Assembly (NCBI RefSeq): GCF_004216565.1
Contig: NZ_SGWV01000009.1
Location: 620,001-684,000 of the forward strand
Origin: Sphaerotilus mobilis
GTDB lineage: Bacteria; Pseudomonadota; Gammaproteobacteria; Burkholderiales; Burkholderiaceae_C
Length of the DNA: 64,000 bases
Direction: 5' to 3'
Made by a program: the position numbers and the translations under genes. Under the pieces are notes generated by a model. The model had not been told where the DNA came from. It did no database searches and was given only the letters and a program-made list of their open reading frames with translations. Of this stretch, positions 1 to 16,553 are shown one piece after another (within the stretch, counting starts at the first letter, position 1; each line of letters starts with the position of its first letter).

Positions 1-964
1 GCCACTCCTCCAGCGCGAAGTAGAGCGTGGCGCTGTCCTCGCCGTCGGCCAGCGGCAGCTCGTAGGGCCGGCCGTGGCTCAGGCAGGTGGTGACCATGCG
101 CAGGTCGATCGATCGGCGGCGTGCGCCGGACGGATCGGCGGGCGGTGGCAGTTCGCCTTCGGGCGCCTCGGCCAGGTCGCGGAAGGTCATCGGCGTCTCG
201 TCTGACAGGCGGCCGGCGGCCCATTGGATCGAGTCGTGCAGCCAGTCGGTCAGGCCCTTGCCGCTGTCGGGCTGACCCAGGCCGGTGCACAGGCCGAGGT
301 GGTTGCCCAGCACGCCCTTGCGCAGGTCGCGGCAGAGCAGCGCGGCCAGCACGACCGCGCCGATCAGCAGGCTGCCGATCAGGCCCATGCCGGTCAGCGC
401 GAAGGTGCGCGCCGTGGCCCAGCCACCGCCGCCGGCCAGCCATGCGCACAGGCCGGCGACGACGACCGCCAGCAGCAGCAGCGCGGTCAGGCCCAGCGCC
501 AGCCCGTAGGAGCGCCACAGCTCGGGCAGCGCGGCGCGCACCCTTTGCACCCACGTCAGATCGGGCCGGGCGGTCGGGCTTGCGGCGAGGAACAGGCGCA
601 GCAGCCGCACGCCGGCCGGGGTGTTGGGATGGAACAGCGACAGCAGCGTCGTCGGCGTCGCTTCCAGGTCCTGGGTGACCTCGTGGACCCGGCCGCGTGG
701 GCGGGGCACGGCCTTGGCCAGCGTCTCGGGCACACGGGCCAGCACGTCGAAGCCGGCGTCCGAGCCAAGCCGGCGCTGGTATTCGGCGGCAGCGGCGATC
801 GCAGCGGCGATCGCACCGACCGAGGTGCCGCCCAGGGCGTGAAAGCGGTAGTGCCGGGCCAGCTCGCAGACCGCTGTCGGGTAGAGCACGCCGCTGGTGA
901 CGCCGCCGGTCAGCACCAGGTCGCAGAAGCGGTCAGCCGGTGGCGGCTCGATGGGGGCGTTCAT
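1..964 (-). CDS. Patatin-like phospholipase with membrane segments (partial, C-terminus beyond window)
   Basis: About 321 N-terminal residues are visible; the gene runs off the left edge. Patatin-family enzymes are lipid acyl hydrolases with a Ser-Asp dyad. The glycine-rich oxyanion loop GGVTSGVLYP lies near residues 20-29 and the nucleophile elbow GTSVG puts the serine at residue 48. The catalytic Asp motif would lie past the edge. Two hydrophobic stretches near residues 155-205 look like transmembrane helices inserted after the nucleophile region, so the enzyme is probably held in the inner membrane. The ATG at 962-964 overlaps the stop of the Dyp peroxidase gene (ATGA), so the two are translationally coupled at the end of a five-gene block. 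Role inferred: release of fatty acid from membrane lipid for the oxidising enzymes encoded upstream. Some membrane patatins are instead effectors in nucleotide-signal defence systems. Confidence 0.8.
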   Translation of the reverse strand, partial: MNAPIEPPPADRFCDLVLTGGVTSGVLYPTAVCELARHYRFHALGGTSVGAIAAAIAAAAEYQRRLGSDAGFDVLARVPETLAKAVPRPRGRVHEVTQDLEATPTTLLSLFHPNTPAGVRLLRLFLAASPTARPDLTWVQRVRAALPELWRSYGLALGLTALLLLAVVVAGLCAWLAGGGGWATARTFALTGMGLIGSLLIGAVVLAALLCRDLRKGVLGNHLGLCTGLGQPDSGKGLTDWLHDSIQWAAGRLSDETPMTFRDLAEAPEGELPPPADPSGARRRSIDLRMVTTCLSHGRPYELPLADGEDSATLYFALEEW

Positions 965-2595
965 GGCCGGTCTCCGCAGATCGTGTCGAGCCCGAAGCGG
1001 GCCGGGTAGAGCAGGTAGAGCGTGCCGCGCGTGAGCACGCTCGGGCGGTCGAAGCGGGCCGACAGGACGCCGCCGTCGGGCAGCCAGATCTCCAACAGCG
1101 CGGCGGCGTTGTCGTGCTGCCCGATCAGCGGGTCACGGGCGGTGCCGACATGGTCCGTGCCCATCGGCACCTGCTGGGCCCAGGCGCCGAGCAGGTGCTC
1201 GAACTGGTCCTCGATGCTGGCGCAGAAGAACAGGCCGAGCAGGCCGACATCCGCCTCGCCGCGCCGGCCATAGGGCAGGCCGCGCCGCAGCACGACGCGG
1301 CGGCGCGGTGGCACGACCGGGTCGTCACGCGGGTTCATGCGGCGGATGTGCGAGCCATGGGCCGGACACGCGCGGTGCGCCGCGCCGTCGACGGGCGCGG
1401 CATGGGGCCGCTGCCATTCGGCGCGCGCGCCGTCCGGCTGGCGCGATGTGCCGGCGGGCGCGGGCAGTGGCTCGAACCAGCCATCGGCCGGCTGCATGGC
1501 CGATCCACCCGGCCAACGGCCACAGAACTGGGCCCGGATGTAGGCCTGCGCGACCGCCCCCGCATCCCGCGCCGCGAGGCCGGCGGCCAGGCGGCGGGCG
1601 TTCTCCGGAGCCAGTCCGGCGGCCATGGCACGCTGGAATCCGCCCAGGGCCGACAGCGCATTCGCCGCCTCGGCCACCTGGGCGTCGAAGGTGGCGACGT
1701 CCTGCCGCATCTTGCGCAGCACGCCGAAGCTGGCGCCGCGAAAGAAGTCGCTCGCCTCGGTCAGGCTGACATGCGGTTCCTCGCTGGGCGGCGGCGCTTG
1801 GCTGGCGTCCTGCCAGCGCAGGTCACGGAAGTCCCAGGGGTTGGCGCCGACCTCGTTGAGGTGGCCCAGCAGCAGCTCGCCCAGCGCGACCGGCTCGGGA
1901 TGCCGGCCCAGGCCGCCCTGCGGGCTGCGGCGGTCGACAAAGACCGGTCGGGCGATGCCGTCGCGGTAGCCGAAATGCTCGACCGCCACGGCGCTGCGGC
2001 CCTGACCGTCCGGCTCGGGCAGGCGTTCACCCGCGAGGCAGGCGAGCGGCTCGAAGGCCAGCGCGTAGGCGGGCAGGCCTTCGACCCGCTGGCGCAGCGC
2101 CTCCACCTGGGCCGCCGTGGCGGCGTGCAGGCTGAGCACCAGGTCGACGCGCCGCGCCGGGTCGTCGCGGGCCCAGTCTTCCCAGCGCGAGGGCGCCGCC
2201 GGGCCACCGTCACCGACCCGCCAGGCGCGGGCGGCGGCCCCTTGCCGGAAGGCCTCGGAGCGTCCGGCCGCGCGCTCGACCCAGGCCGCTGGCAGGCCGA
2301 GGCGACGCAGTCCGGACAAGGTCAGCCCGATGTCGATGGCGCCGTCGCGCGTGGCCAGATCCACCCCGCCTGCCAGCGCCGAGGCGTGGTCACACAAGGG
2401 GCCTTGGGCATCGCGCAGGCCGCGCAGGTCGCGCAAGGCGTTGAGCACCCGGCGCGCCGGCCGGCCGGTCAGCGCGGGGCTGTCGTCATGGCCCTGCTCA
2501 TCCCGGATGCGCAGCACCAGGTGCCGCACCGCATCGGCCCGGCGGTAGCCGCAGCCGGCCAGGCGCTGTGGCGCGTGGCGGTCGTCGAGGTTCAT
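961..2595 (-). CDS. Dyp-type heme peroxidase
   Basis: A 544-residue protein of the dye-decolourising peroxidase family, at the long end for it. The family oxidises varied substrates with H2O2 or organic peroxides. The distal motif GYRDG (residues 209-213, Asp212) is present, and the C-terminal heme region HIRRMNPR (His416, Arg418) follows the CPAHGS segment. No Sec or Tat signal is visible at the N-terminus, so a cytoplasmic place is likely. No encapsulin-targeting tail or encapsulin gene was noticed. The ATG at 2593-2595 was chosen over upstream in-frame starts because those fall inside the preceding P450 gene; 35 bases separate it from that gene's stop. It overlaps the patatin gene by 4 bases. 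Neighbours suggest a lipid or lipid-hydroperoxide substrate, which is inference only. Confidence 0.88.
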   Translation of the reverse strand: MNLDDRHAPQRLAGCGYRRADAVRHLVLRIRDEQGHDDSPALTGRPARRVLNALRDLRGLRDAQGPLCDHASALAGGVDLATRDGAIDIGLTLSGLRRLGLPAAWVERAAGRSEAFRQGAAARAWRVGDGGPAAPSRWEDWARDDPARRVDLVLSLHAATAAQVEALRQRVEGLPAYALAFEPLACLAGERLPEPDGQGRSAVAVEHFGYRDGIARPVFVDRRSPQGGLGRHPEPVALGELLLGHLNEVGANPWDFRDLRWQDASQAPPPSEEPHVSLTEASDFFRGASFGVLRKMRQDVATFDAQVAEAANALSALGGFQRAMAAGLAPENARRLAAGLAARDAGAVAQAYIRAQFCGRWPGGSAMQPADGWFEPLPAPAGTSRQPDGARAEWQRPHAAPVDGAAHRACPAHGSHIRRMNPRDDPVVPPRRRVVLRRGLPYGRRGEADVGLLGLFFCASIEDQFEHLLGAWAQQVPMGTDHVGTARDPLIGQHDNAAALLEIWLPDGGVLSARFDRPSVLTRGTLYLLYPARFGLDTICGDRP

Positions 2596-2630
2596 GTCGG
2601 TCTCCCAGGGTCTGCCGGCAGCGATCGGGC

Positions 2631-5474
2631 TCAGGCGGGCAGGCGGCGACGCCATTCGCGCTCGGCGCGCTGGATGTCGGTCACGCGCAGCGCCGGGGCG
2701 GCGCTGAAGAAGTAGCCGCCGACCGCCTCGTGCCCGCTGACGCTGGCGCGCAGGCGGCTCACAAAGGCGGAGCGGTGGCGGCTGACGGGCCGTGGCGGTG
2801 GGTCGGCCAGGTGGTCGAACAGGCGGTCGAACAGGTCGGAGGCCTCGCGGGCCAGCAGGCCGAGCAGGGGCTCCAGGCCGCCGTCGACCTGGGCCAGCAG
2901 GGCGAGCTGGCGGTCGTCGTCGAGCAGCACGAACCAGGCGAAATGGGCCAGACCGGACTCGCGCAGGCAACGCGCCAGCACCGGCGCCGCCAGCGCGATC
3001 TCGCGCACCAGTGCGCGGGCGTGGTCGCGCTGCGGTGCCCGGATGTCCAGCACCAGGCACTGCGGGCCGTGCACCCGTTGCAGGTCGGGCGCATGGCGCA
3101 GCCGCAGCCGTTCGCCGTTGGGGTCGGCCGGTCCGAGGCCGGGCCAGCTGGCGATGCGCTCGACCAGCCGGTCGGCCAGTGCCTGGGCGTCGGCATGTGC
3201 CAGCGGCGGGCCGGGATCGGCGGGTGTCGACCGGCCCCGTCCACCCTGGGTGGCGGCCAGCCGGGCCTCGACCTGCAGCGGCAGGCGGTCGACCAGCTCG
3301 ACGACCCGGCGGCGCAGTTCGGCCGAGTCGGCCGGCACGCCATCGTCCGGTGGCGCGCCGCCGTCGTCGGCCATCACCTCGGCCAGGCAGCGGGCTTCGT
3401 CGCGCAGCGTGTCGGGGTGGCGGGACAGCGCGTCCCGCACCCGCGTGGCCGACTGGCGCAACAAGGCCAGCCGCAGGCCAGCCTGTCGGGCGAGCGTGTA
3501 GGGCTCGAACAGCTCGCGCATGGCAGGGGCCAGCAGCGCGTCGTGGGCGGCGCGCTCGACCGCGTCGCGGGCGTCGGGCCGTTCACCCAAGGGGCGCTGG
3601 CGCGGCCCTTGTCCAAGCTGGCGACGTTGCCAGGCATCGGCGGCAGCCATCTCGGCGGTGGTGAGCTGCGGGCAGGCGCTGAAGACCAGTCCGGCGACCG
3701 GCGCATGCAGCGCGTGGGCCTTGCGGATGCGCCCGACGAACTCCTTCGGGTAGCGGCCGATCGGGCGCTTGACCGGCGCGTCGACGATGTGCACGAATAG
3801 CAGGTCGAACAGCGGCCCGACCCGGCCGGCGAAGTACTCGATGTAGGCATCGAAACTGCCGTCGTAGGTGGTGAACAGGGCGAGCTGGCGACCGCCGTTG
3901 AACATCACGAACCAGGCGCTGTGGATGTGCTGCGATTGCAGCAGGCTCTGCTCGATCAGCGGCGCGGCGCAGCCGATCAGGCGCTGCAGGGCCGGACCGT
4001 GTTCGGCGATCGGCTCGCGCACGTCCATCACCACGCACAGCGGCTGCTGGCGCAGGTGGCGTTCGCGCAGGTGGCGCAGCGGCAGGCTGCGGGCGGCGAA
4101 GTGCCAGCGCCGTTCGAGCCGCCGTTCGCGGCCTTCGACCTCGGCCCACTCGCGCGCCAGTCCGGGCAGGCGCAGCAGGCCGGCGGTGAGCTGCAGCAGC
4201 AGCGGCATCACGACATGGTCGCCGATGCAGTCGTGGGGGGCACGGGTGGTGAAGACGCGTGTCTGCCAGGGCGTGACGGCGGCGCTCGGACGCGGTTCGG
4301 GTGCGCCCGCCCACAGCACCAGGTTGGCGCCAGGCGGCAGGTCCACGCCGCCCAGCGTCAGGCCCTCGGCCACGACCCGGCGCGGCAGGAAGGCCACCGG
4401 CGGCTGTTCGGCCAGGACCTGCCAGGTGGCGTCGCGCAGGGCTTGCAGCTCGGCGATGTGGGTGTCGGCCTGCAGCGCATGGGCGGACCGGCGCAGCGCG
4501 CTGGCGTGGTCGACGTCGGCATCAAGCAGGCGGTCCACGATCAGCCCGACGCTGGTCTGCACGTTGCCGACGGTGCCACCGAGCAGGCCCAGCACGATGG
4601 CGGCCTGTTCATCGGGCGTGAGCGGCGCGCCCGGCAGGCTGCTGGGCGCTCCCCCCAGGCGCGCACACAGCGGCACGAAGGTGGCGCCGGCGATGCCTGC
4701 CCCGTGAGCGACCAGGTCGGCGCGCAGCTGGGCCAGTTCGCGCTGCAGCACGTCGCAGCGGTCGAGGTCTTCGGGGGTGGTGCGGCGGGGCGCACCGCTT
4801 GCACCGCTGGCACCGCTTGCGCTGGACGCGGCCTGCAGATGGGCGTGGTCCAGGATCAGCTGCTGCACCCGTTCACGCGCGGTGGCGCTGGCATCGCGTT
4901 TCCAGGCGGTCTTGGGCGAGACGCCGATGTGACGCCCCAGGATGACGTGCACCAGGCCGTCGTAGACGTAGCGGGTCAGGCCGGTCAGCAGCGTCAGGTC
5001 CTGGCTGGGGAAGCCGAACAGGTGGGCGACGAAGCGCACGGCCGCATCGCGGGCCAGCGCGACGGCATCCAGCCTTTCTTTGCCGAGCGCCAGCACGGCG
5101 GCTTCGTCCCAGGCCAGCCGGGCCAGCGCCTGCACCGGCAGGTGGGCGGCGGCCCGACCGCCGAACAGCACATGGGTGACCCAGTGGCGCTGTTGCTCAT
5201 GGGCCTGTCCATCCAGTGCCAGCATGAACTCGCCACCGCCCAGCTCGGCATAGGGCTTGTTGCTGTAACGGCCGGCGGTGTCGGTCAGCACCTCGCGCAC
5301 CAGGGCGGCGTCGCGCACCAGGAAGGTGGGCGTCTCGGGTTCGGCCCGGCTGGTGAAGGCCAACACCGGCTGGTCGAGGCCATGCCGAGCCCAGTCGGGT
5401 GGACGCCGGTCATCCTGTTCGAGGCAACGACGCAGGGCGTCGGTGACGCGGTGGTCGGGGATACGTCGGGTCAT
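2631..5474 (-). CDS. Cytochrome P450-like protein fused to a tandemly duplicated unknown domain
   Basis: A 947-residue protein. Residues about 1-445 resemble a P450: the cysteine loop APHDCIGD gives Cys416 with the usual His two residues before and Gly two after. Two hallmarks are unusual. The I-helix region reads GGTVGNVQTS (about 299-308), with no acid/alcohol pair but with Asn304 and Gln306. The K-helix segment just before PPVAFLPRR lacks a clear ExxR. A short Ser-Ala-Gly linker lies near 215-230. Two copies of a domain of about 140 residues follow (480-620 and 806-945). They share the patterns C-h-V-h-D-h-R, AWFV, RQLAL and FSA-P. I do not recognise that domain. The lost oxygen-activation threonine recalls P450s that isomerise hydroperoxides rather than mono-oxygenate, an inference. 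Lies 93 bases downstream of the cyclase/AAA gene. Confidence 0.72.
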   Translation of the reverse strand: MTRRIPDHRVTDALRRCLEQDDRRPPDWARHGLDQPVLAFTSRAEPETPTFLVRDAALVREVLTDTAGRYSNKPYAELGGGEFMLALDGQAHEQQRHWVTHVLFGGRAAAHLPVQALARLAWDEAAVLALGKERLDAVALARDAAVRFVAHLFGFPSQDLTLLTGLTRYVYDGLVHVILGRHIGVSPKTAWKRDASATARERVQQLILDHAHLQAASSASGASGASGAPRRTTPEDLDRCDVLQRELAQLRADLVAHGAGIAGATFVPLCARLGGAPSSLPGAPLTPDEQAAIVLGLLGGTVGNVQTSVGLIVDRLLDADVDHASALRRSAHALQADTHIAELQALRDATWQVLAEQPPVAFLPRRVVAEGLTLGGVDLPPGANLVLWAGAPEPRPSAAVTPWQTRVFTTRAPHDCIGDHVVMPLLLQLTAGLLRLPGLAREWAEVEGRERRLERRWHFAARSLPLRHLRERHLRQQPLCVVMDVREPIAEHGPALQRLIGCAAPLIEQSLLQSQHIHSAWFVMFNGGRQLALFTTYDGSFDAYIEYFAGRVGPLFDLLFVHIVDAPVKRPIGRYPKEFVGRIRKAHALHAPVAGLVFSACPQLTTAEMAAADAWQRRQLGQGPRQRPLGERPDARDAVERAAHDALLAPAMRELFEPYTLARQAGLRLALLRQSATRVRDALSRHPDTLRDEARCLAEVMADDGGAPPDDGVPADSAELRRRVVELVDRLPLQVEARLAATQGGRGRSTPADPGPPLAHADAQALADRLVERIASWPGLGPADPNGERLRLRHAPDLQRVHGPQCLVLDIRAPQRDHARALVREIALAAPVLARCLRESGLAHFAWFVLLDDDRQLALLAQVDGGLEPLLGLLAREASDLFDRLFDHLADPPPRPVSRHRSAFVSRLRASVSGHEAVGGYFFSAAPALRVTDIQRAEREWRRRLPA
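4792..4818. repeat. Three 9-bp tandem units inside the P450-fusion gene
   Basis: Three consecutive 9-bp units, GCACCGCTT, GCACCGCTG and GCACCGCTT, encode part of the Ser-Gly-Ala linker. Being in-frame, changes in copy number would lengthen or shorten the linker without breaking the gene. Confidence 0.8.
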
Positions 5475-5567
5475 GCGGCCTCCCTGGCAGCGCGGTGGAA
5501 CGTCGGTTGCCGGCTGGGGCCGGTCTGTGGTCGTCCGGGATCGGGGTTCAGGCGTGAGCCGCTGGCA

Positions 5568-8500
5568 TCAACCGCTGTCCTGGGTCGCCAGTCCGGCCTG
5601 CGGCCAGAGACGGGCATCGAGCGTGGGCAGGTCGAAGGAGCGCGCCATGTCGGCGTCGATCCAGAGCGGCGCGCGCGCCGCGCGGGGCTCGCCCGACAGC
5701 CGTGCCAGCAGCGCCTCGGCCCACAGGACGTCGCGGCTGCCGCGTCCACCCTGGATGGCGGCGAGGGCCTCCTCCAGGTCGCGGCGGGCCTGTTCGACGC
5801 GGGCCACGGCGATGGGTTGGCCCGGCCGGTCGTCGTCCAGCCGGAGAGCCTGCCGGTCCTGCTCCAGCCGCAGCCGGCTGATGGCGACCCGCAGCGCGAT
5901 GCCGTGCTGGCCCATCGCGGCGGCCCGTTCACGGGCCTGCGCCAGCCAGTCCCGCGAGGCATCGAGCATGGCCTTCAGACGTTGCGGATCGGCACCGGGA
6001 TCGACGGCCTGGTCGCCCAGGGCCAGCAGGCGCTGGAACTCGCCGCTCAGGCGCAGCAGCTCGGGCTCGAAGTAGCGCTCGCCGCGCGTGGCCACCAGTT
6101 CAAGGGCCTCGGCCAGCAGCGCCAGCGCCTGGTCGCTGCGGCCGGCGGCGGCCTCGCCCTGGGCCCAGAGCGCGAGGTAGAACGAACGCGTGACAACCGC
6201 GCCGCTGTCGACCCAGCGCTGGTAGCCCGTGCGCAGCAGCGCGACGCCGCGGTCGACGTCGCCGACCTGCACGAGCAGCCGCCCGCGCACCACCTCGGCA
6301 TGGGCCAGCCAGACGCTGAAGCCGCCCTCCTGGCTGATCTCGATCGCCTGTTGCACGCTCTGCAGCGCGGCCTCGTTCTCGCCCCGGAAGAAGTGCACGA
6401 CGCTGAGGAAGCCGTAGGCCTCGGCCATGCTGAAACGGTGCTTCAGGCCCCGCGCGAGTTCGACCACCTGTTCGGCGCGCCGCAGTGCCTCGTCGGGCTG
6501 GCCGAGCTGCCAGAGCGCCCAGGCCGAGTAGCACAGGCACATCACGCCCGGGTCCTGCACGGCGCTGGGGCGGTGCGGCAAGTTGCGGTAGTCGGCCAGG
6601 CACTGGTTCATGCGGTCGACCGCGCCGATCAGGTCACCCTGGTGGAAGACCAGGTTGGCCTCGGACCACTGCGATTGCAGCCGCGCCATCGGGTCGGTCG
6701 AGCGTTGCGCCAGTTCACCGGCCTGCTGGCCGATCTGGCGCGCCCGGTCGAAGTCGGCGCGCATGAAGTGGAAGCCTTCCAGCCCGAACAGCGCCTTGGC
6801 CAGCGCGACGTCGTCGCCGAGTTGGCGGGCCAGGTCCAGCGCACGACCGTAGACATGCTCGACCCGGTCGGCGCCATAGCCCTCGGTGGCGATCAGGCGG
6901 CTGGCCAGCAGCAGGTTCAGCCGCAGCGCACTGCGTTCGCGTTCGAGGCCCGGCGCCATGTGGTCGAGCAGGACCAGCGCGGTCTCCAGGTCGGCGATGG
7001 CCTCCAGGTGGGCCGAGCGGGCGGCCGAGCGGCGGGCGGCGCGTTCCCATTGCGCGACCGCCTCGGCGATCAGGCCGGCCTCGGTCAGGTGGCGCGCCAG
7101 CAGCTCGGGCTGGGCCTCGGCGACGTGGGGCAGCGTCAGCTCGATGACCTCGGCGATCACGCCGTGCAGCCGGCGCCGGTCACGTTCCCACAAGGATCCG
7201 TAGGCGGCGTCGCGCAGCAGCGCGTGGCGGAACAGGTAGAGCGGCTCATGGTCCGAGCCACGCGGGATCAGCAGGTCGGCCTGCACCAGCGTGGCCATGC
7301 TGTCGTCCAGGTCGGCCACGCCGACGGGGCAGTGTGTGTGCGCGACCACCGCGCCGAGCAGCGAGCGCGTGAACTCGCGCCCGATCACGCTGGCGACCTG
7401 GGCCAGCCGCTTGGCCGCCGGGGCGCGGTCGAGCCGGGCCATCAGCAGGTCGTGGATCGTGGCGGGCACCGGCGCGGTGGCCGGACGGGGGTCGACCGCC
7501 GGTCCGGCCAGGTCCAGCAACATGCGCGTGGACTCTTCCAGGAACAGCGGCACGCCGTCGGCGCGTTCGAGCAGCCAATGGGCCGTGTCCGGATCGATGC
7601 GACGCGCACCGCACAGGCTGTCGACCATCTGGCGGGCGGTGTCGGGCGTCAGGCCTGGCAGCAGCAGGGTGTCGGCGCCCAGGTCGCTGTCGTCCTGGCC
7701 GGGCTCGGGCCTGGACGTCATCAGCAGCAGCAGGCGTCGCCCGTTGCCTTCGCTCAGGGCGCGGGCGATCAGGGCGCGGGTGGACGGATCGATCCAGTGC
7801 AGGTCCTCGACCACCAGGCAGACCGGTTCGGCCTCGACCGCCTGCCACATCCACTGCAGCAGCAGGTCCATGGTGGCGCGGCGCTGGCGCTCGCTGGACC
7901 AGCCGGCCAGCGCGGCCGGGTCGCCATGCACGCTCAGCAGCTGGGCCAGCAGTGCGCCGCCCTGTTCGTGGCGCAACTGGCCCATGTCGCTGGCGGCGAT
8001 CTTGTCGCGTCGCTGCTGGGCGCTGTCGGTGTCGCGAAAGCGCAGGTAGCGGCCGAGGAACTCCGTCACCGGAAACCAGGCCGTGGTGGCCTGTTCCGGG
8101 GCGCAGCGCCATTCGATGAAGCGCCAGCCGCGGCCGGCCTCGCCGCGCCGGAACTCCCGCACCAGGCGGGACTTGCCGATGCCGGCCTCACCCAACACCA
8201 GCAGCGCGCGGGCGCGCGGGTCGGCGCGCTCGTCGAGCCGGCTGCGCGCGCGCAGCCAGGCGAGTTCCTCGACCCGGCCCACGAAGGGCGCCAGCTGCGA
8301 CTGACGGTCAAAGCGCTCGGTGCCGCGCAGCGTCGATTCGCCCAGCACGCGGTAGATCTCGCCGGGCTGGTCGAAGCCCTTCATGGACGGCGCGGCGCCG
8401 AGCGACTCGAACTCGAAGCGTTCGGCCACCACCCGCCAGGTCGCCTCGCTGGCGATCAGCTGGCCCGGCGGCGCGATCGCCTGCAGGCGGGCGGCGTAGT

Positions 8501-9902
8501 GCACCGCCGCGCCGACCGGCTGGTCCGACTTGACGACCACCTGCCCGGTCGCCGCACCCAGCCTCACGGGCAGCCCCAGCGCGGCGCAGCGCGCCAGGAT
8601 CTGCAGGCCAGCCCGCAGCGCCAGCACGGCGGCGTTCTCGATCGCCTGCGGGAAGCCGAAGTAGCACATCACGCCGTCATCCCCCTGGGGGTCGTCGGCC
8701 CGTCCGCCATGGGCGGCGACGGTCTCGCCCAGGACGGCGTGGTAACGCGCCAGCTGCTCGCTGTAGGCCTCGTCGCCGAGCTGATGCATCAGACGGGTCG
8801 AGTCGACCAGGTCGCAGGACAGCACCGTGACCTGACGCACATGGTCGGCCGCGCCGCTGGCCGGGCGGGTTGGCTGCAACAGGCGCAGCGACGGGTTGCC
8901 CAGCAGCTGGGTGTGTGCACACGGTTCGCCCTGGGCGCGAGCGGCAAGGCGGGCGCGCCGGACCGACTCCCCCAGCGTCAGCCCGGCCCCCAGGCAGGGG
9001 TAAAGCGTCGACAGGAAGGCCTGCGGGCTGGTCCGACCGGGCCATGGCGGGTCGGACGGCTGCGCACCGGCATGCAGCAGCACCGGCACCCCGGCGTTGA
9101 TCAGCTGGCGCACGGCACCGCTGCGTGAGGCCAGTGCGGCGCGCAGCTGCGACGGTGTCGCCTGCAACACGACCAACGCGAGTCCGCCGCCGGCCTCAGC
9201 CGCCAGTTCGACGCTGGCCTCGATGGCCCGGCCACTGGCGTTGGGCCAGTGCTGCAGCGGCAGCAAGGCGGCGCTGGCCGGGTCGGCCGCTCCGGCCCCG
9301 TCGAGGCCACCGACGAGGTGCAGCACGTCGTGCCGGTGCAGCAGGGCCTGCAGCGCGCCACTGCCGACAGCGGCCCGGTCGACCAACAGCGCCCGCAGGC
9401 CGTTGCCCTGCAAGGTGTCGAGCAGCTCGGTGACCGGCTGGGCGCCGTCCTCGGCCAGCATCAGCACACGCAGCAGCTCGCGCGGTGCACCGGCATGAGG
9501 TCGCGCCACGGTGGCCTGACCGTCGATCAGTCGCCGCGCCACGGCATGCCGCTCATCCAGGTGCAGCTCGCCGTCGAAGGCCAGCTCCCACGTCACGCCA
9601 GCCAGGTCGGGCGCCAGCTGCAAGGTCAGGTCACAGGGCCCGAGCCGGGCCAGCGTCTGGCGCACCGGCAGGGGCAGCAACTCGCGGTACACCAGACCGC
9701 CGTAGGTCTGACGCTGTGTGGCGCCGTCATGCCCGGACAGGCTGGCGGCCATGGCCTCCAGTCGCCAGTACGGCGCCACCGGCAGCTCGGCCCGCAGGCC
9801 GATGCCGCCACCGTCGGTCAGCGTGCAGCACAGCCGGTCGCCCTCTCGGACGATCATCAGCAGCAGGGACGGCCGAGGGCTTTCGGCCCGGGTGGCTGGC
9901 AT
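5568..9902 (-). CDS. CHAT-like / class III nucleotide cyclase / AAA ATPase / TPR signalling protein
   Basis: A 1444-residue multidomain protein, probably cytoplasmic. Residues about 1-345 look like a CHAT (caspase-like) domain, but the catalytic His position is Gly199 (HLVGG) and the Cys position is Thr249 (VVLQAT), so it is probably not a protease. Residues 357-520 are a class III adenylate/guanylate cyclase homology domain. The metal-binding aspartates are kept (Asp364 in SCDLVDST, Asp409 in GDDGVM), but the usual transition-state Asn is His468 (VHYAAR, Arg472 kept) and the usual base-recognising Lys position reads Pro. Residues about 540-860 form an AAA/NACHT-like ATPase with Walker A GEAGIGKS (Lys577) and a Walker-B-like VVEDLHW. 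The rest is helical TPR-like repeat. The gene starts 18 bases after a CRP-type regulator gene, suggesting a cyclic nucleotide sensor pair. Confidence 0.82.
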   Translation of the reverse strand: MPATRAESPRPSLLLMIVREGDRLCCTLTDGGGIGLRAELPVAPYWRLEAMAASLSGHDGATQRQTYGGLVYRELLPLPVRQTLARLGPCDLTLQLAPDLAGVTWELAFDGELHLDERHAVARRLIDGQATVARPHAGAPRELLRVLMLAEDGAQPVTELLDTLQGNGLRALLVDRAAVGSGALQALLHRHDVLHLVGGLDGAGAADPASAALLPLQHWPNASGRAIEASVELAAEAGGGLALVVLQATPSQLRAALASRSGAVRQLINAGVPVLLHAGAQPSDPPWPGRTSPQAFLSTLYPCLGAGLTLGESVRRARLAARAQGEPCAHTQLLGNPSLRLLQPTRPASGAADHVRQVTVLSCDLVDSTRLMHQLGDEAYSEQLARYHAVLGETVAAHGGRADDPQGDDGVMCYFGFPQAIENAAVLALRAGLQILARCAALGLPVRLGAATGQVVVKSDQPVGAAVHYAARLQAIAPPGQLIASEATWRVVAERFEFESLGAAPSMKGFDQPGEIYRVLGESTLRGTERFDRQSQLAPFVGRVEELAWLRARSRLDERADPRARALLVLGEAGIGKSRLVREFRRGEAGRGWRFIEWRCAPEQATTAWFPVTEFLGRYLRFRDTDSAQQRRDKIAASDMGQLRHEQGGALLAQLLSVHGDPAALAGWSSERQRRATMDLLLQWMWQAVEAEPVCLVVEDLHWIDPSTRALIARALSEGNGRRLLLLMTSRPEPGQDDSDLGADTLLLPGLTPDTARQMVDSLCGARRIDPDTAHWLLERADGVPLFLEESTRMLLDLAGPAVDPRPATAPVPATIHDLLMARLDRAPAAKRLAQVASVIGREFTRSLLGAVVAHTHCPVGVADLDDSMATLVQADLLIPRGSDHEPLYLFRHALLRDAAYGSLWERDRRRLHGVIAEVIELTLPHVAEAQPELLARHLTEAGLIAEAVAQWERAARRSAARSAHLEAIADLETALVLLDHMAPGLERERSALRLNLLLASRLIATEGYGADRVEHVYGRALDLARQLGDDVALAKALFGLEGFHFMRADFDRARQIGQQAGELAQRSTDPMARLQSQWSEANLVFHQGDLIGAVDRMNQCLADYRNLPHRPSAVQDPGVMCLCYSAWALWQLGQPDEALRRAEQVVELARGLKHRFSMAEAYGFLSVVHFFRGENEAALQSVQQAIEISQEGGFSVWLAHAEVVRGRLLVQVGDVDRGVALLRTGYQRWVDSGAVVTRSFYLALWAQGEAAAGRSDQALALLAEALELVATRGERYFEPELLRLSGEFQRLLALGDQAVDPGADPQRLKAMLDASRDWLAQARERAAAMGQHGIALRVAISRLRLEQDRQALRLDDDRPGQPIAVARVEQARRDLEEALAAIQGGRGSRDVLWAEALLARLSGEPRAARAPLWIDADMARSFDLPTLDARLWPQAGLATQDSG

Positions 9903-9920
9903 GGCGCTTGGGCGGCCGGG

Positions 9921-10757
9921 CTACCAGCGCGCTGGCAGCGCACGGTGCAGGATCAGGTCGGCGCCTTCGACCGTGACGTAGCCGCCATGTTCGAGGTCCT
10001 TCATCAGCCGGCTGACCATCTCGCGCGAACAGCCCAGCCGGTTGGCCATGTCCTGATGGGTCAGGCGCGGCACCCGGCGTGGTGGCGACTCCTGAGCGGC
10101 CAGGCCAGGCGTGCCATTCATGCCATTCATGCCATTGGCAGCATTCACGCCGGTCAGTCGCTGCAACACGCTGTCGACGCTGGCAGCGGCCGCTGGCGTG
10201 GCCTCGGCGCTGCGGGTCTCGGCCAGCGATTCAAGCAGCGCCCGCAGCCGTCCGTAGACGTCGTTGAGCGCCAACTGCTTGGCCGACAGCGTGGCCGAGC
10301 GCGCCCGCCGGATCACCTTGGACAGCAGCTCGAAGGCGAACTCGGGGTACTGGGCGATGTGCAGCAGCAGGGTCTGGCGCGGGATGACGACGCAGACGGT
10401 CGGCTCCAGCGTCATCACGCTGGCCGAGCGCGGACCGCCGTCCAGGCTGATCTCGCCGATGTACTCGCCGGCGCCGTAGACGCCGTAAGTGATCTCGCGA
10501 TCGTTGTCGCCCTGCGAGTAGGCCCGCACCTTGCCCGACAGCACGATGTAGAGCGTGTCGCCCTGGTCGCCTTCCTGAATCAGCAGCACGCCCTTGCGGT
10601 AGCGGCGCGGCTCGGCCCGTTCGGCCAGCGCGCGCAGGGCCGGCGAGATCGGCAGGTCGTGGAGGGAAGGCAGGATGGGGCCTGAACGGCCGGCGCGAGA
10701 GTTCATCGCGCCCGAACTTAGGCGAAGGTCCAGCTCGATGCAAGCATCCGTGTCCAT
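9921..10757 (-). CDS. CRP/FNR-family transcriptional regulator
   Basis: About 278 residues. An N-terminal cyclic-nucleotide-binding fold carries the phosphate-binding-cassette pattern GEISLDGGPRSAS, whose Arg-Ser pair matches the cAMP-contacting residues of E. coli CRP. A C-terminal winged helix follows (LTHQDMANRLGCSREMVSR). No FNR-type cysteine cluster is seen. The hinge before the HTH is unusually long and contains an NGMNGMNG repeat from 9-bp tandem units. I chose the ATG at 10755-10757 because GAGGA lies 4 bases upstream on the coding strand; the open frame also has a GTG at 10785-10787 with no such site. First gene of the cyclase-P450-peroxidase-patatin block and its likely regulator. 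The ligand is probably a cyclic nucleotide, possibly made by the protein encoded next. Confidence 0.88.
   Translation of the reverse strand: MDTDACIELDLRLSSGAMNSRAGRSGPILPSLHDLPISPALRALAERAEPRRYRKGVLLIQEGDQGDTLYIVLSGKVRAYSQGDNDREITYGVYGAGEYIGEISLDGGPRSASVMTLEPTVCVVIPRQTLLLHIAQYPEFAFELLSKVIRRARSATLSAKQLALNDVYGRLRALLESLAETRSAEATPAAAASVDSVLQRLTGVNAANGMNGMNGTPGLAAQESPPRRVPRLTHQDMANRLGCSREMVSRLMKDLEHGGYVTVEGADLILHRALPARW
10112..10138. repeat. 9-bp tandem repeat in the CRP-type regulator gene
   Basis: Two exact TGCCATTCA units followed by TGCCATTGG. On the coding strand they give the Asn-Gly-Met repeat in the linker between effector and DNA-binding domains. In-frame copy-number change could alter the hinge. 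Confidence 0.85.
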
Positions 10758-10769
10758 GGCGTCCTCGGC

Positions 10770-10787
10770 GTGACGGGCGGATGTCAC
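10770..10787. promoter_or_regulatory. Inverted repeat upstream of the CRP-type gene, possible operator
   Basis: GTGAC, eight bases, then GTCAC: a perfect 5-bp inverted repeat lying 13-30 bases upstream of the chosen start. It resembles CRP-family half-sites, but the spacing is wider than the E. coli CRP consensus (GTGA to TCAC 10 instead of 6), so autoregulation is only a possibility. Confidence 0.35.
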
Positions 10788-10868: not shown

Positions 10869-11612
10869 TCAGTGCGCCACCCCGTTCAGGGGCGCGCGAC
10901 CGAGGGCCGGCACGATCGGTGGCAGCACCGCCACGCGCCGGACCAGCTCGCGGATGCTGCCGCAGCGGGTCTTCTGGCGGATCGCCGAGATCTGCGTGCG
11001 CACCGTCGAGACCGCCACGCCGAAGCGTGTCGCAACCTCGGCCGGCGTGTCGCCGTCGCACAAGGCGGCCAGCACCATGCCTTCCGCATGGGTCAGGCCA
11101 TGCACCCGGGCGTAGTGGTCGACGCTGAGGGCCTCGCACATCTGCGCCTTGCCGAACACCAGCAGCACGCCCTGCACTGGCAGGCCGCCCAGCGGCACCA
11201 CGGCGACCGATTGCGGCCGCTTGTCGTCGCCCACGGCAACCAGGCCGCGCCGACCCTGTTGCGCCGCCGCCTGGATGGCACGGGCCAGCGGCTCCTCGCG
11301 CGCGGGGTGGCGCGCTACCGGCCGGTCAAGCTGCAGCAGGCAGACCCCATCGGGTCGCTCGAACAGACGTCGCGCGCAGTGGTTGGCCAGCATCAGCCGG
11401 CCCTGCCGGTTGACGATGGCCATGCCGTAGTCGAGCTCGTCGAGGGCCTGGGTCACCAGGCTCTGCAGCGCCGGAAACAGCAGGCCGGCGCTGTCCAGGT
11501 CGCCGCTGCGGGCGGCTGTGGTCGAGCCGGCGAGCAGCAGGTCCAGCACCGGCATGTGCAGGGCTTGGGCCTCGGCTTGGGCCTCGGGCGGTGCAAGGGT
11601 CTCGATCAGCAT
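10869..11612 (-). CDS. LuxR-family transcriptional regulator
   Basis: About 247 residues. The C-terminal 60 residues are a GerE/LuxR helix-turn-helix (LTHAEGMVLAAL, then TPAEVATRFGVAVSTVRTQI). The N-terminal part has a PAS-like look (YGMAIVNRQGRLMLANHCA) and may sense a small ligand. No receiver domain or autoinducer-binding pattern is evident. The start at 11610-11612 was preferred because GGGAAG lies about 6 bases upstream; an in-frame ATG at 11643-11645 is the alternative. It is on the same strand as the CRP gene with 111 bases between, so it might influence that block, but no direct link is visible. Confidence 0.82.
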   Translation of the reverse strand: MLIETLAPPEAQAEAQALHMPVLDLLLAGSTTAARSGDLDSAGLLFPALQSLVTQALDELDYGMAIVNRQGRLMLANHCARRLFERPDGVCLLQLDRPVARHPAREEPLARAIQAAAQQGRRGLVAVGDDKRPQSVAVVPLGGLPVQGVLLVFGKAQMCEALSVDHYARVHGLTHAEGMVLAALCDGDTPAEVATRFGVAVSTVRTQISAIRQKTRCGSIRELVRRVAVLPPIVPALGRAPLNGVAH

Positions 11613-11744
11613 GATGGTCTTCCCGGCGGGGGTCGCGATGTCCATCAATCTAGGGAGGCGCCACCGGTCCGGGTGGTGTGCATTCACGCCGCCCTTGTGA
11701 TCTATTGCCCGGCCGCCGGTCACAAGCGGCCCCGCAGCGCCCGC

Positions 11745-13214: not shown

Positions 13215-14360
13215 TCACAGCCACATCATCGCGGAGGCGGTCGGCTCGGAGGCCGGGTCGGCGATGTGGCCCAGCGTCATCTCGACCTTCTGGGCATCGT
13301 GGCGGCCGCGTTGCCAAGGGTCCTCGAAGTCGTCGACCAGCAGGTGCAGACGCTCGGCCTGGTGCAACAGCGACTCGCCTTCGGAAAGGTAGCGCTGGCC
13401 GTGCGCCATGCGCTCGAACGGCACCCAGCCGCGGTTGACCAGCGCATGGCTGAGCAGCCCCGCGCCGCCGCCCTGGTCGAAGGCCTGCAGCAGGTCGGCG
13501 GCGCTGCGGTCGATCGTCTCGGGGCATTGCAGGATGTTGGCGATGAAGACCTTGGGCACGTCCGGCACGGCGGCCAGCGCCCGCGCGATGCCGTCGACCG
13601 CGAGGTGGGCCAGCGTGCTGGTGAAGAAGCTGCCGGGGCCAAAGGCGATCACGTCGGCGCGCCCGATGGCCTCGAGCGCGGTCGGGTTGGCCTGTGGCGC
13701 CCGGCCGCGTTCGCCATGCAGGTGCACCCGCTCGATGCCGGTGCGGGCCTGCTCGCCGGACAGCCGCGTGACATGGTCCTGGCGGCGCACCTGGCGGCCG
13801 TCGCGCAGGTCGGCGACCAGTTCGACCGCGTCGTCGGTGGTCGACGGCCAGACATGCCCGCCGATGCCGCACAGGGCGCGGAAGACCAGGATGGCGCGGT
13901 TGATGTCGCGCTGGTGCGCCAGATAGGCGCCGGTCAGCACGAAGTTGCCGATGCTGCCGCGACACAGGTCGAAGTCGGGCCCGATGCAGGCCTCGAAGAC
14001 GCCCAGGTAGTCGACGATGGCACGCCGCACCTCCGGCGGCAGGGTCCGCAGCAGCGGGTGGGCGCCGCGCACGTAGAACGCGAACTCGGCGCGCAGCGCG
14101 GTGGGGTCGGGGTTCTCGGACAGTCGGGCGTTGAAGTAGCGCACGACGTTGCTGAGCCGGCCCTCGCCGTGCGCCAGCGTCATCAGCGCCTGCCGGATGT
14201 CGCCCATCGCCAGGATGCCCAGCGACTCGCGCAACGCCTTGGAACTGCCGCCGCTGTCCCAGGCCGGCACGATGCGCGTGACGTCCCAGCCGGCCTGGCT
14301 CAGGGCGATGGTGATGTCGCGGCTGCCGCTGCCGCCGCCGAACATGACGATGCGATTCAT
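13215..14360 (-). CDS. CofD/YvcK-like nucleotide-binding protein
   Basis: 381 residues of the 2-phospho-L-lactate transferase (CofD) / gluconeogenesis factor YvcK superfamily. The N-terminal loop MFGGGSGSRD and the segment PAWDSGGSSKALR match its phosphate-binding and Asp/Ser-rich motifs; AFGPGSFFTS near residue 240 matches the conserved C-terminal loop. YvcK proteins bind UDP-sugars and affect cell wall metabolism; CofD makes F420, whose other genes are absent here. The SRD variant after the glycine loop resembles the CofD-like member of the so-called GAK set, but no ATP-grasp partner lies beside it. Divergent from the AAA ATPase gene. Confidence 0.72.
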   Translation of the reverse strand: MNRIVMFGGGSGSRDITIALSQAGWDVTRIVPAWDSGGSSKALRESLGILAMGDIRQALMTLAHGEGRLSNVVRYFNARLSENPDPTALRAEFAFYVRGAHPLLRTLPPEVRRAIVDYLGVFEACIGPDFDLCRGSIGNFVLTGAYLAHQRDINRAILVFRALCGIGGHVWPSTTDDAVELVADLRDGRQVRRQDHVTRLSGEQARTGIERVHLHGERGRAPQANPTALEAIGRADVIAFGPGSFFTSTLAHLAVDGIARALAAVPDVPKVFIANILQCPETIDRSAADLLQAFDQGGGAGLLSHALVNRGWVPFERMAHGQRYLSEGESLLHQAERLHLLVDDFEDPWQRGRHDAQKVEMTLGHIADPASEPTASAMMWL

Positions 14361-14471
14361 GGCTCGGAACCTTGGGGATGACCGGTGCCGTCTGGCGCTG
14401 GATGTGGTGCGGATGATCGCACCGGGTCGACCCGCGCACGCGCCGGACGATTTCTCTACAAAAGTCTAATA

Positions 14472-14486
14472 ATGTCTATCTGACAT
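14472..14486. promoter_or_regulatory. Inverted repeat ATGTC-N5-GACAT upstream of the AAA ATPase gene
   Basis: A perfect 5-bp inverted repeat with a 5-base spacer in an A/T-rich leader. A -10-like TAGAAT follows at 14491-14496, so a repressor bound here could block a promoter for the gene starting at 14534. No convincing -35 element was found. Confidence 0.4.
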
Positions 14487-14533
14487 CACATAGAATTGCC
14501 TATCAACCAGTAGCTTTGACGCTTGGATGAACC

Positions 14534-15718
14534 ATGGATCCCGTCCGCAATCCCTTTGCACCAGGCGCAGGCAGCCAGCCACCCGAACTGTCGGGGCGTG
14601 GCGCCATCCTGGACGAGGCGAACATCGCCATTCAGCGCGCACTGATCGGCAAGCACAGCCGATCGCAGATGCTGCTCGGCTTGCGCGGCGTCGGAAAGAC
14701 GGTGCTTCTCAACAAAATCGCGGAGATGGCTGAAGGCGCCGGGCACGTCACTTCGTTCATCGAGGCTCCCGAGGGCAAGTCCCTCAGTGAACTTCTGGTG
14801 CCGAAGATCAACCAGACCTTGCGCAAGTTCTCCCTGGTTGAACAGGCCAAGGCCAAGTCGCACCAAGCACTGCGTGCGCTGCGTGCATTCGCGTCCGTTT
14901 TCAAGGTGACTTACGGCGACGCCACCCTGTCCGTGGACCCTGAAATCGGCGTCGCCGACAGCGGCGACATCGAGAATGATCTGCCTGAGCTGTTTGTTCG
15001 TGTCGGTGAAGCAGCCAAGGCCGCCGGCAAGGCTTGGACGCTGCTCATCGATGAGGTCCAGTATTTGAGTGGAACTGATCTTGCAGCGCTGATCGTCGCA
15101 TTGCACAAGATCAGCCAGAAGGATCTGCCGGTATTGTTCTTTGGCGCGGGTCTGCCGCAAGTTGCCGCCTTGTCGGGCGAAGCAAAATCGTATGCTGAGC
15201 GAGTTTTCCACTTTCCGGCCGTAGGGCCTCTCGTCGGTGACGATGCAAGAAGTGCCATCAGACAGCCGATCGAAAATGAGGGCGAGAAAATAACGGATAT
15301 CGCCCTCGACGATATCTTGCAAAAAACGCAGGGCTATCCCTATTTCCTTCAGGAATGGGGTTATCAATGCTGGAACATCGCTCAGGGTCCGCAGATCGAA
15401 TGGTCCGATGCATCGCAAGCGGCTCATGCTGCGACGCGTCGATTGGACGATGGTTTTTTCAAGGTACGGTTTGACCGACTCACGCCCAAGGAGCGCGAGT
15501 ACGTCATTGCCATGGCACAACTGGGTGCTGGTCCCTACCGTTCATCAGAAGTGGCGATTGCCCTCAATGAAACACATCAGAGCTTGGGGCCACGACGAGC
15601 GCAAATCATCAACAAGGGAATGATCTACAGCCCATCGCACGGCGACATCGCCTTCACCGTTCCCATGTTCAACGACTACCTGATGCGCAACTACGTCAAC
15701 AAGCCGAGGAAGACGTAG
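14534..15718 (+). CDS. AAA+/STAND-type ATPase, probably horizontally acquired
   Basis: 394 residues. Walker A is GLRGVGKTVLL near residues 50-60 and Walker B is WTLLIDEVQYL near 172-182; a sensor-like LPVLFFGAG follows. The C-terminal part ending near FNDYLMRNY looks like a winged-helix module, as in archaeal-type or Orc1-like ATPases often carried on mobile DNA. No extra effector domain is visible. Codon use and base composition differ from all neighbours: bases 15241-15300 hold 28 G+C out of 60 against roughly 70% around it. It stands alone between divergent and convergent core genes. It may have come with an unseen partner, as part of a defence or regulatory module, but function is not assigned. 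Confidence 0.8.
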   Translation: MDPVRNPFAPGAGSQPPELSGRGAILDEANIAIQRALIGKHSRSQMLLGLRGVGKTVLLNKIAEMAEGAGHVTSFIEAPEGKSLSELLVPKINQTLRKFSLVEQAKAKSHQALRALRAFASVFKVTYGDATLSVDPEIGVADSGDIENDLPELFVRVGEAAKAAGKAWTLLIDEVQYLSGTDLAALIVALHKISQKDLPVLFFGAGLPQVAALSGEAKSYAERVFHFPAVGPLVGDDARSAIRQPIENEGEKITDIALDDILQKTQGYPYFLQEWGYQCWNIAQGPQIEWSDASQAAHAATRRLDDGFFKVRFDRLTPKEREYVIAMAQLGAGPYRSSEVAIALNETHQSLGPRRAQIINKGMIYSPSHGDIAFTVPMFNDYLMRNYVNKPRKT

Positions 15719-15752
15719 ACCCGCCATCCGATTTCAAGCCCGGCTTGCCACT

Positions 15753-16553
15753 TCAGAGCGAGATGTCGTAATCCACCACCAGCGGCGCGTGGTCGCTGAA
15801 GCGCTGGTCCTTGTAGACCGACGTGGCGCGTGCCAGCGCGGCGGTGGCGGGGGTGGCGAGGTGGTAGTCGATGCGCCAGCCCACGTTCTTGGCCCAGGCC
15901 TGGCCGCGGGCGCTCCACCAGGTGTAGCCGGCGTCGGTGGCGTCGGGTTCGAGCGAGCGGTAGACGTCGACCAGGCCGATGTCGTCCAGCAGGGCGCTCA
16001 TCCAGGCGCGTTCCTCGGGCAGGAAGCCGCTGTTCTTGAGATTGCCCTTCCAGTTCTTCAGGTCGACCTCGCGGTGGGCGATGTTGACGTCGCCGACCAG
16101 GATGAACTCGCGCTCGGCCTTGAGCGCACGCAGGTGGGGGGCCATGCGGTCGAGGAAGCGGAACTTGGCTTGCTGGCGCTCGTCGCCGGACGATCCGCTC
16201 GGAAAGTAACAGCTGATGACGGAGAGCTTGCGCCCCGGCCGGTCGTAACGGGCCTCGACATAGCGGCCTTCGTCGTCGAACTCGCCGTCAACGTCGGCCT
16301 TGCCCAGGCCGATGAGGACCTCCGACGGTTCGACCCGGCCGTACAAGCCGACACCGGAATAGCCTTTTTTCACGGCACAGTGGAAGTGCCCGGTCATGCC
16401 GTCGATCACGCGCATGGGCTCTGTGAGGTCGCCCAACTGGGCCTTCAGTTCCTGCACCCCCATACAATCGATCGACATGCTTTCGACCCATGGAATCAGG
16501 CCTTTGCTCACTGCCGAGCGGATGCCGTTGAGGTTGAGGCTGACCAGACGCAT
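15753..16553 (-). CDS. xthA: Exodeoxyribonuclease III (AP endonuclease)
   Basis: 266 residues of the EEP nuclease fold. Metal and catalytic residues fall in [15 protein letters not shown] (Glu), the Asp-Asn pair of VGDVNIAH, and SDHAPLV at the C-terminus. The enzyme removes abasic sites and 3' blocking groups in base excision repair, using Mg2+, in the cytoplasm. Length matches the family. It is convergent with the AAA ATPase gene and divergent from pyrE; the two start codons are only 14 bases apart, so each upstream control region lies inside the other gene. Confidence 0.95.

Follow-up and report, generated by a model that had tools for sequence, protein, structure and literature searches.

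A conserved gene block of a STAND-like class III cyclase, a P450 fusion protein, a Dyp peroxidase, and a patatin in Sphaerotilus mobilis and related bacteria, and its possible role in lipid-peroxide processing

One end of a 64,000-nucleotide stretch of DNA from Sphaerotilus mobilis (contig NZ_SGWV01000009.1, positions 620,001 to 684,000, hereafter the window; G000, contig 3, 620001-684000 in our set) carries a block of minus-strand genes whose conserved core consists of four members: a STAND-like class III cyclase, a P450 fusion protein, a Dyp peroxidase, and a patatin. The block is not a product of chance, as the same order and strand are found in 26 genomes. As far as we have searched, it is a real, conserved, and undescribed gene system whose composition matches no known system, while each of its enzyme families is known. 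Judged from residues and gene context, we give an even chance to its being a module for the processing of lipid peroxides that is controlled by a cyclic nucleotide, and this is the best supported of the readings considered. An earlier description of the window, made from the letters alone (the sequence-only reading), had listed five genes, and the spacing that it gave (intergenic distances of 18, 93, and 35 bases, plus a single overlap of 4 bases) is borne out. Its tally was incomplete, as a sixth gene of the LuxR type lies directly upstream of the CRP gene on the same strand. The genes and the key stretch of the P450 are as follows.

10869 to 11612, minus strand: regulator of the LuxR type, 247 aa (GerE 4.3e-5; PAS_4 weakly matched, 0.0056).
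9921 to 10757, minus strand: CRP/FNR-family regulator with a cyclic-nucleotide-binding domain, 278 aa (PF00027 1.3e-22, PF00325 8.4e-10).
5568 to 9902, minus strand: STAND-like class III cyclase, 1444 aa (AAA_16, PF13191; TPR_12, PF13424; Guanylate_cyc, PF00211).
2631 to 5474, minus strand: divergent P450 fused to two ABM-fold "REP" domains, 947 aa (alignments, AlphaFold model, Foldseek).
4221 to 4589, minus strand: part of the P450 between G296 of the I-helix and G418 of the heme loop (G300-T-V-G303-N304, R365, H414-x-C416-x-G418).
961 to 2595, minus strand: Dyp-type peroxidase, D-type-like, 544 aa (TIGR01413 6.3e-11, below its cut-off; profile match to the D-type Dyp 7anv).
1 to 964, minus strand: patatin-like phospholipase, N-terminal 321 of 676 residues (PF01734; the remainder lies left of the window, L009 10934-12000).

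The patatin gene thus crosses the window edge and is complete in the 4.65-Mb genome (L009 10934-12964, 676 aa). The CRP gene starts with ATG, and its reading frame is open up to a GTG at 10787.

Related loci were gathered in three ways: from a comparison of the P450 protein with 120 relatives, from a patatin profile run against GTDB genomes, and from a Dyp profile run on 299 genomes of the family and 398 of the phylum. Counts from the patatin search, which are based on 80 of 333 loci, and from the Dyp profile, for which 4 to 5 candidates were scored per genome, are lower bounds. By profile searches of the loci, the patatin gene directly follows cyclase, P450, and Dyp in the same order and on the same strand in 26 of the 29 genomes in which this trio stands in order and the region behind Dyp is visible. 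This count omits six loci whose block is cut by contig ends (L052, L061, L063, L084, L103, and L221), takes two records of one genome once, and includes two truncated loci, L070, in which the cyclase is cut, and L102, in which both cyclase and patatin are. The order is kept across genera: block-bearing records, a number of which are metagenome bins, are labelled Leptothrix, Ramlibacter, Rhizobacter, Methylibium, Scleromatobacter, Rhodoferax, Comamonas, Rubrivivax, Pseudorhodoferax, and Comamonadaceae, and the remainder are unnamed Burkholderiales, Betaproteobacteria, and Proteobacteria.

The Dyp search offers a sample that was not selected for patatin. A Dyp of the window's type (type 1, E <= 6e-104) is present in at least 15 of the 299 family genomes, and P450 and cyclase genes adjoin it in all 15; a patatin accompanies it in 11, none is adjacent in 3, and the contig end cuts the locus in 1. 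Among the 398 phylum genomes it was found in at least one, the window's own, with the next best match at E 1.3e-63. Three of 13 genomes of the genus hold the type-1 block. A contig scan of genomes with one window protein alone as query found nothing, and an order-wide search with a P450 profile (at most 3 candidates scored per genome, not used for counts) gave one clear REP-type match outside G000 (4.9e-30), the others being weaker.

The four core proteins have diverged considerably, with a median pairwise identity of 35-40% and a lowest value of 27%, and their pairwise distances correlate (r 0.91-0.93, 22 loci), although vertical descent alone would give the same. Stronger signs that the proteins act together come from gene overlaps and gene fusions. 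With starts picked by script, a 4-bp overlap joins the P450 gene to the Dyp gene in 20 of 24 loci (the window has a gap of 35 bases here) and the Dyp gene to the patatin gene in 12 of 23; Dyp and patatin form a single open reading frame (ORF) in three genomes (L056, L068, and L069).

The fusion protein consists of a P450 at about residues 1-470 and REP domains at about 476-605 and 800-930. The window protein has no Pfam match; two relatives match PF00067, one of them just under its cut-off, and a profile of 7 sequences matches solved P450s (3.4e-8). Its AlphaFold model has a mean predicted local distance difference test score (pLDDT) of 71.6, with the P450 core mostly at 80-94, and the top 50 Foldseek matches of the P450 model are all P450s. 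By modelled fold and by its heme-thiolate cysteine loop, then, the protein is assigned to the P450 superfamily. The best structural match, CYP184A1 with oleic acid bound (2.7e-9), may serve as a weak hint to the substrate. Residues D88, N304, R365, H414, C416, and G418, and with them the heme loop H414-x-C416-x-G418, are present in 25/25 type-1 members. No further P450 was found in G000 at E<=1e-20.

What sets this P450 apart is its I-helix, which reads GGTVGNVQ. The claim that it lacks the acid/alcohol pair holds well beyond the window: no Asp or Glu occurs at I-helix positions 302-304 in any of 44 aligned P450s (25 of type 1 and 19 others, fused to a Dyp or within about 2 kb of one), whereas the pair is present in 29/29 ordinary P450s found with PF00067 in the same family. 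These controls came from 30 loci, one of which was unread, and as best-scoring P450s they are biased to canonical ones. The acid/alcohol pattern did match 5 of the 44 Dyp-linked proteins in the scanned region, each time outside the aligned I-helix place. The distal position is Asn in all 25 type-1 P450s, preceded by Gly (G303) in 24, and in the other 19 it is Thr (14), Ser (4), or Ala (1). In PMC13049297, the residue distal to the heme is given as Asn for prostacyclin synthase (ATQGN287), for plant allene oxide synthase (AOS), and for fungal linoleate diol synthase (LDS) and epoxy alcohol synthase (EAS), as Thr for fungal 8R/9R-AOS, and as nonpolar for others. The distal Asn supports a role of the P450 as a peroxide isomerase without proving it. 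The K-helix ExxR motif is Q-x-x-A in the window protein; among the other Dyp-linked P450s it is kept in 13 of 19.

Each of the two REP copies spans about 130 residues. By sequence, no convincing PDB match was found (best E 0.63); the model (pLDDT 81.9) resembles ABM-type alpha+beta-barrel proteins, with a best Foldseek E of 3.7e-3 and none below 1e-3. Since related domains are fused to or stand beside Dyps in other architectures, the REP/ABM-like domain may hold the two heme enzymes together.

The pairing of Dyp and P450 also recurs in other forms. Many Dyp matches fall within long ORFs. In this second type, an ABM-like domain and a Dyp are joined with a P450 that belongs to a second profile, forming one protein of 1159-1644 aa at 26 loci (L257-L276, L064, L066, L080, L230, L248, and L249). 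The sample comprises 23 of 25 long-ORF Dyp matches (G544 and G058 contig 105 were left out) together with L064, L066, and L080. A class III STAND cyclase lies on the fetched piece in 26/26, within 150 bp in 22 and at 0.8-5.5 kb in 4; L064 and L080 seeded the profile for this cyclase (cyclase-2), and their match is by construction. The same pieces hold a patatin in 6, CRP in 9, and a LuxR homologue in 9. The 44-row alignment includes six of the 26 P450s. A pattern check that read 17 of the 26 proteins found no acid/alcohol motif in these, and one of the 9 it left unread (L249) is among the aligned. This second type is present in at least 23 of the 299 family genomes, compared with at least 15 for the window's type, and in the congener G008 (L260). 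A third arrangement places the P450 first and the Dyp last in ORFs of 1410-1544 aa (L233, L236, L237, and L239), and in L236 and L237 a small cyclase-like gene and a CRP-like gene adjoin. Across these architectures, the combination of Dyp with P450, in many cases controlled by a class III cyclase, emerges as a recurrent bacterial theme of which the window holds one version. It is not general to Dyps, since other Dyp loci (e.g., L234 and L241) have no recognised P450 or cyclase.

The cyclase protein is made up of an N-terminal domain of unknown kind followed by a cyclase, an AAA_16 ATPase (3.9e-17), and a TPR array (TPR_12 6e-11), the last two of which make it STAND-like. Guanylate_cyc (PF00211) is matched at 4.7e-5 by the isolated cyclase domain and not with the whole protein as query. 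The domain also matches Rv1900c (9.4e-11), which we take to be an active cyclase. Its probable assignment to class III is supported by D364, D409, and R472 (the two metal-binding Asp residues and the Arg), which are found in 24/24 non-gap rows, as are G574, G576, and K577 of the AAA Walker-A motif. The position of the transition-state Asn is His in 23 of 24, and the solved Rv1900c (LipJ) domain has the same VH..AR. Cyclase, AAA, and TPR parts are supported; the CHAT-like part, which had been claimed for the same protein, was rejected, with no detectable homology (no Pfam match and no PDB match better than 0.17) and a His that is not conserved (H195 in 12 of 25).

Both remaining core enzymes keep their catalytic residues. 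The Dyp protein matches Dyp_perox_C (6.7e-6) and TIGR01413, and its profile matches the D-type Dyp 7anv at 7.7e-45. The Asp of the GxxDG motif (D212) is present in 27/27 non-gap rows, the proximal His (H416) in 29/29, and the distal Arg (R433) in 28/29. No hydrophobic segment and no signal peptide is evident in it, and the enzyme is probably cytoplasmic. The full patatin protein matches PF01734 at 5.1e-12. Its G46-x-S48-x-G50 motif, with the catalytic Ser48, is found in 28/28 members, and D406-G-G, with the catalytic Asp406, in 27/27 non-gap rows. Two hydrophobic segments (155-173 and 193-211) lie within the window patatin, and an internal one is seen in 27 of 28 members, in keeping with a membrane patatin.

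Taken as a lipid-peroxide module, the block could work in the following way. The STAND-like protein would act as a sensor, its TPR and AAA parts detecting a trigger, and its class III cyclase domain would then make a cyclic nucleotide. Where a CRP gene is present, this nucleotide would act on transcription through CRP. The membrane-anchored patatin would release acyl chains from membrane lipid, and the cytoplasmic Dyp and the acid-less P450 would then convert acyl (hydro)peroxides in tandem. In this putative order of reactions, the P450 would serve as a reductase-independent peroxide isomerase or peroxygenase, comparable to prostacyclin synthase or to the P450 half of the fungal dioxygenase-P450 fusions. 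It is the residues and the gene fusions that suggest oxylipin-like chemistry, and the products may act as oxylipin-like signals rather than being detoxified. It is possible, though we propose it tentatively and think it rather less than probable, that such blocks represent a new class of bacterial signalling, in which STAND cyclase sensors control patatin-fed Dyp-P450 pairs that make oxylipin-like messengers, independent of the eukaryotic cyclooxygenase (COX)/lipoxygenase-P450 routes and with a Gly-Asn pair convergent with that of prostacyclin synthase.

Several observations weigh against this reading. Among the genes of the block no lipoxygenase or dioxygenase that could form the hydroperoxide was recognised, and its source would have to be H2O2 or radical chemistry. 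The patatin is not beside the trio in 3 of the 29 genomes (L025, L212, and L213), and in two of these no patatin was found anywhere in the genome. CRP is optional, being seen near 8 of the 29 loci (upstream flanks are often only about 2 kb), and when up to 2 mismatches were allowed, the CRP site TGTGA-N6-TCACA was found once in the window, within the cyclase gene, compared with a mean of 15 expected by chance. As for the P450, its heme-binding loop (394-402 and 407-415) was modelled with pLDDT below 50, and ExxR is lost in 14 of the 25 type-1 members, the window's included, and kept in 11; because of this loss, some of the type-1 P450s may be catalytically weak. Finally, according to PMC13049297, LDS and EAS can do without the distal Asn, which is why its presence here is not proof of an isomerase role.

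A close rival is that the block serves lipid-peroxide detoxification. Under oxidative stress, the patatin would excise peroxidised acyl chains, and Dyp and P450 would remove the hydroperoxide, with no signalling involved. The same enzymes and residues fit, and with no lipoxygenase recognised in the block the peroxides may stem from damage. As members of their families, the two heme enzymes could use peroxide and need no reductase. However, the patchy spread seen in the family and genus counts above is odd for repair, and a 1400-aa STAND cyclase would be an elaborate control for a housekeeping task; we regard membrane repair as somewhat unlikely.

Alternatively, the STAND cyclase may sense invasion by phages or competitors, and the patatin and heme enzymes may damage the membrane in a form of abortive infection. 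The sequence-only reading had offered such a defence system as its alternative. STAND ATPases, class III cyclases, and patatins do occur in defence systems, the distribution is patchy, and PADLOC gives the cyclase protein a weak PycC match (3.3e-4). Its analysis of the surroundings lends little support to defence. Neighbours were drawn from 20 loci with a crude GC-bias gene caller (168 calls, of which the nearest 138 were taken), and 127 remained after 11 had been removed by hand, most of them encoding CRP, LuxR, or the conserved lactamase and outer-membrane proteins. Among the families listed in the PADLOC and Pfam tallies (25 of 131), no PADLOC model occurs in more than 3 of these neighbours (mads_3 in 3, helicase-type and PD-T4-6 in 2). 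The cyclic-nucleotide-binding domain sits only in the transcription factor and not in the enzymes. No relative of the P450 protein was found in viral contigs, and on plasmids there were 2 distant matches to Dyp, along with 22 patatin records of less than 60% identity. A defence role is improbable. We have similarly little confidence in a specialised metabolite pathway, in which P450 and Dyp would couple or oxidise an aromatic compound, many members of both families acting on aromatics, and the patatin-like enzyme would act on it as a hydrolase or acyltransferase: no listed Pfam family is found in more than 5 of the 127 neighbours (commonest are HATPase_c with 5, enoyl-CoA hydratase and short-chain dehydrogenase with 4 each; AMP-binding has 2), and both the acid-less I-helix in 44/44 and a patatin with catalytic residues and a hydrophobic segment speak against it.

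CRP had been counted as a member of the block, and it is indeed present in the window; it is not a fixed member, being found also beside a metallo-beta-lactamase gene without the enzymes. Fixed membership of LuxR is weakened in the same way. The LuxR start (ATG at 11612) was picked by comparison with homologues, and on the same upstream flanks LuxR was seen near 7 of the 29 loci. Homologues stand beside the block in L022, L023, L025, L026, L069, and L212, and beside a related Dyp in L028. The metallo-beta-lactamase gene that adjoins the block is present in 12 of the 13 genus genomes. In six congeners (G001, G005, G006, G007, G008, and G010) CRP, mostly with LuxR, lies beside it, and the enzymes are absent from the pieces fetched. 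In G009 the entire LuxR-CRP-enzyme block lies about 65 kb from the metallo-beta-lactamase gene. In view of the G009 arrangement and the congeners without the enzymes, acquisition of the enzyme operon next to a LuxR-CRP pair, or its movement along with one, is possible. The CRP protein contains the stretch GEY(I/V/M)GEISLDGGPRSAS, which resembles a phosphate-binding cassette; it is shared by 4 of 5 aligned proteins, and L025 has a close variant.

Upstream of the LuxR gene only widely spaced CRP half-sites are seen, which we did not use as evidence. The same region (window 11612-11730) holds an apparent recurring element like CAATNNNTCAC, spotted by eye, with matching parts in L022, L023, and L143-L146. 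Some copies contain TGTGA/TCACA half-sites, and the element is also present in congeners without the enzymes there. In the congener G008, a few kb from the LuxR-CRP pair, lie two genes (L143 9062-11196), presumably one transposase-like and one ATPase-like. On the other side of the block, left of the window, a gene overlapping the end of the patatin gene (L009 10215-10937) has a MOSC domain (2.3e-5) and weakly matches O6-methylguanine methyltransferases in their DNA-binding part; it had no match in the seven relative loci fetched first. Within the window, G+C falls to 0.61 at 14001-16000 compared with 0.68-0.70 on either side. This is perhaps acquired DNA, and it includes a plus-strand ORF (14534-15718) that is presumably ATPase-like.

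If the lipid-peroxide reading is true, bacteria hold a nucleotide-controlled counterpart of the prostaglandin- or jasmonate-like lipid cascades, and its components come from families of peroxidases and P450s that are not known in such use. A set of acid-less, Dyp-linked proteobacterial P450s would thereby gain a function, and Dyp peroxidases, for which few physiological substrates are known, a plausible natural role. Reductase-free P450s could also be of use as biocatalysts.

The sequence-only reading knew of no described system with this gene set, and we likewise found no description of it in the open-access literature, most subscription papers lying outside that scope. The cyclase-AAA-TPR part is akin to the TOMM kinase/cyclase family (TIGR03903), with which it aligns over 353-1289 (5e-140); it scores 468 bits, under the 706-bit cut-off, and has no kinase domain among its Pfam matches. 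Pycsar and CBASS also place a cyclase beside a membrane-acting enzyme family, but an effector with a cyclic-nucleotide sensor was not found here, cNMP_binding being present only in CRP among the five proteins, and the PADLOC match is weak. Bacterial oxylipins are already known in Pseudomonas aeruginosa, where PMC6377657 describes oxylipin-dependent quorum sensing with a diol synthase operon and OdsR. It is likewise a bacterial oxidised-fatty-acid system with its own regulator, in that case a LysR-type receptor; our comparison is by description and not by enzyme sequence. Prostacyclin synthase (CYP8A1) and the CYP74 enzymes share with the window P450 a Gly-Asn at the acid/alcohol place (ATQGN in prostacyclin synthase, per PMC13049297, and GTVGN here), and no redox-partner gene was recognised in the block; the relationship seen here goes no further than the P450 superfamily, and ExxR is lost in the window protein. 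The fungal dioxygenase-P450 fusions, namely the linoleate diol, epoxy alcohol, and allene oxide synthases, likewise have two heme domains, often in one polypeptide, and a self-sufficient P450 part with a distal Asn, Thr, or nonpolar residue (PMC13049297), compared with Asn in the type-1 proteins (25/25) and mostly Thr in the others (14/19) here. Their first domain is a COX-like dioxygenase, whereas the block has a Dyp peroxidase, recognised from its sequence, and it is here that a patatin, a STAND cyclase, and ABM-fold domains accompany the heme enzymes.

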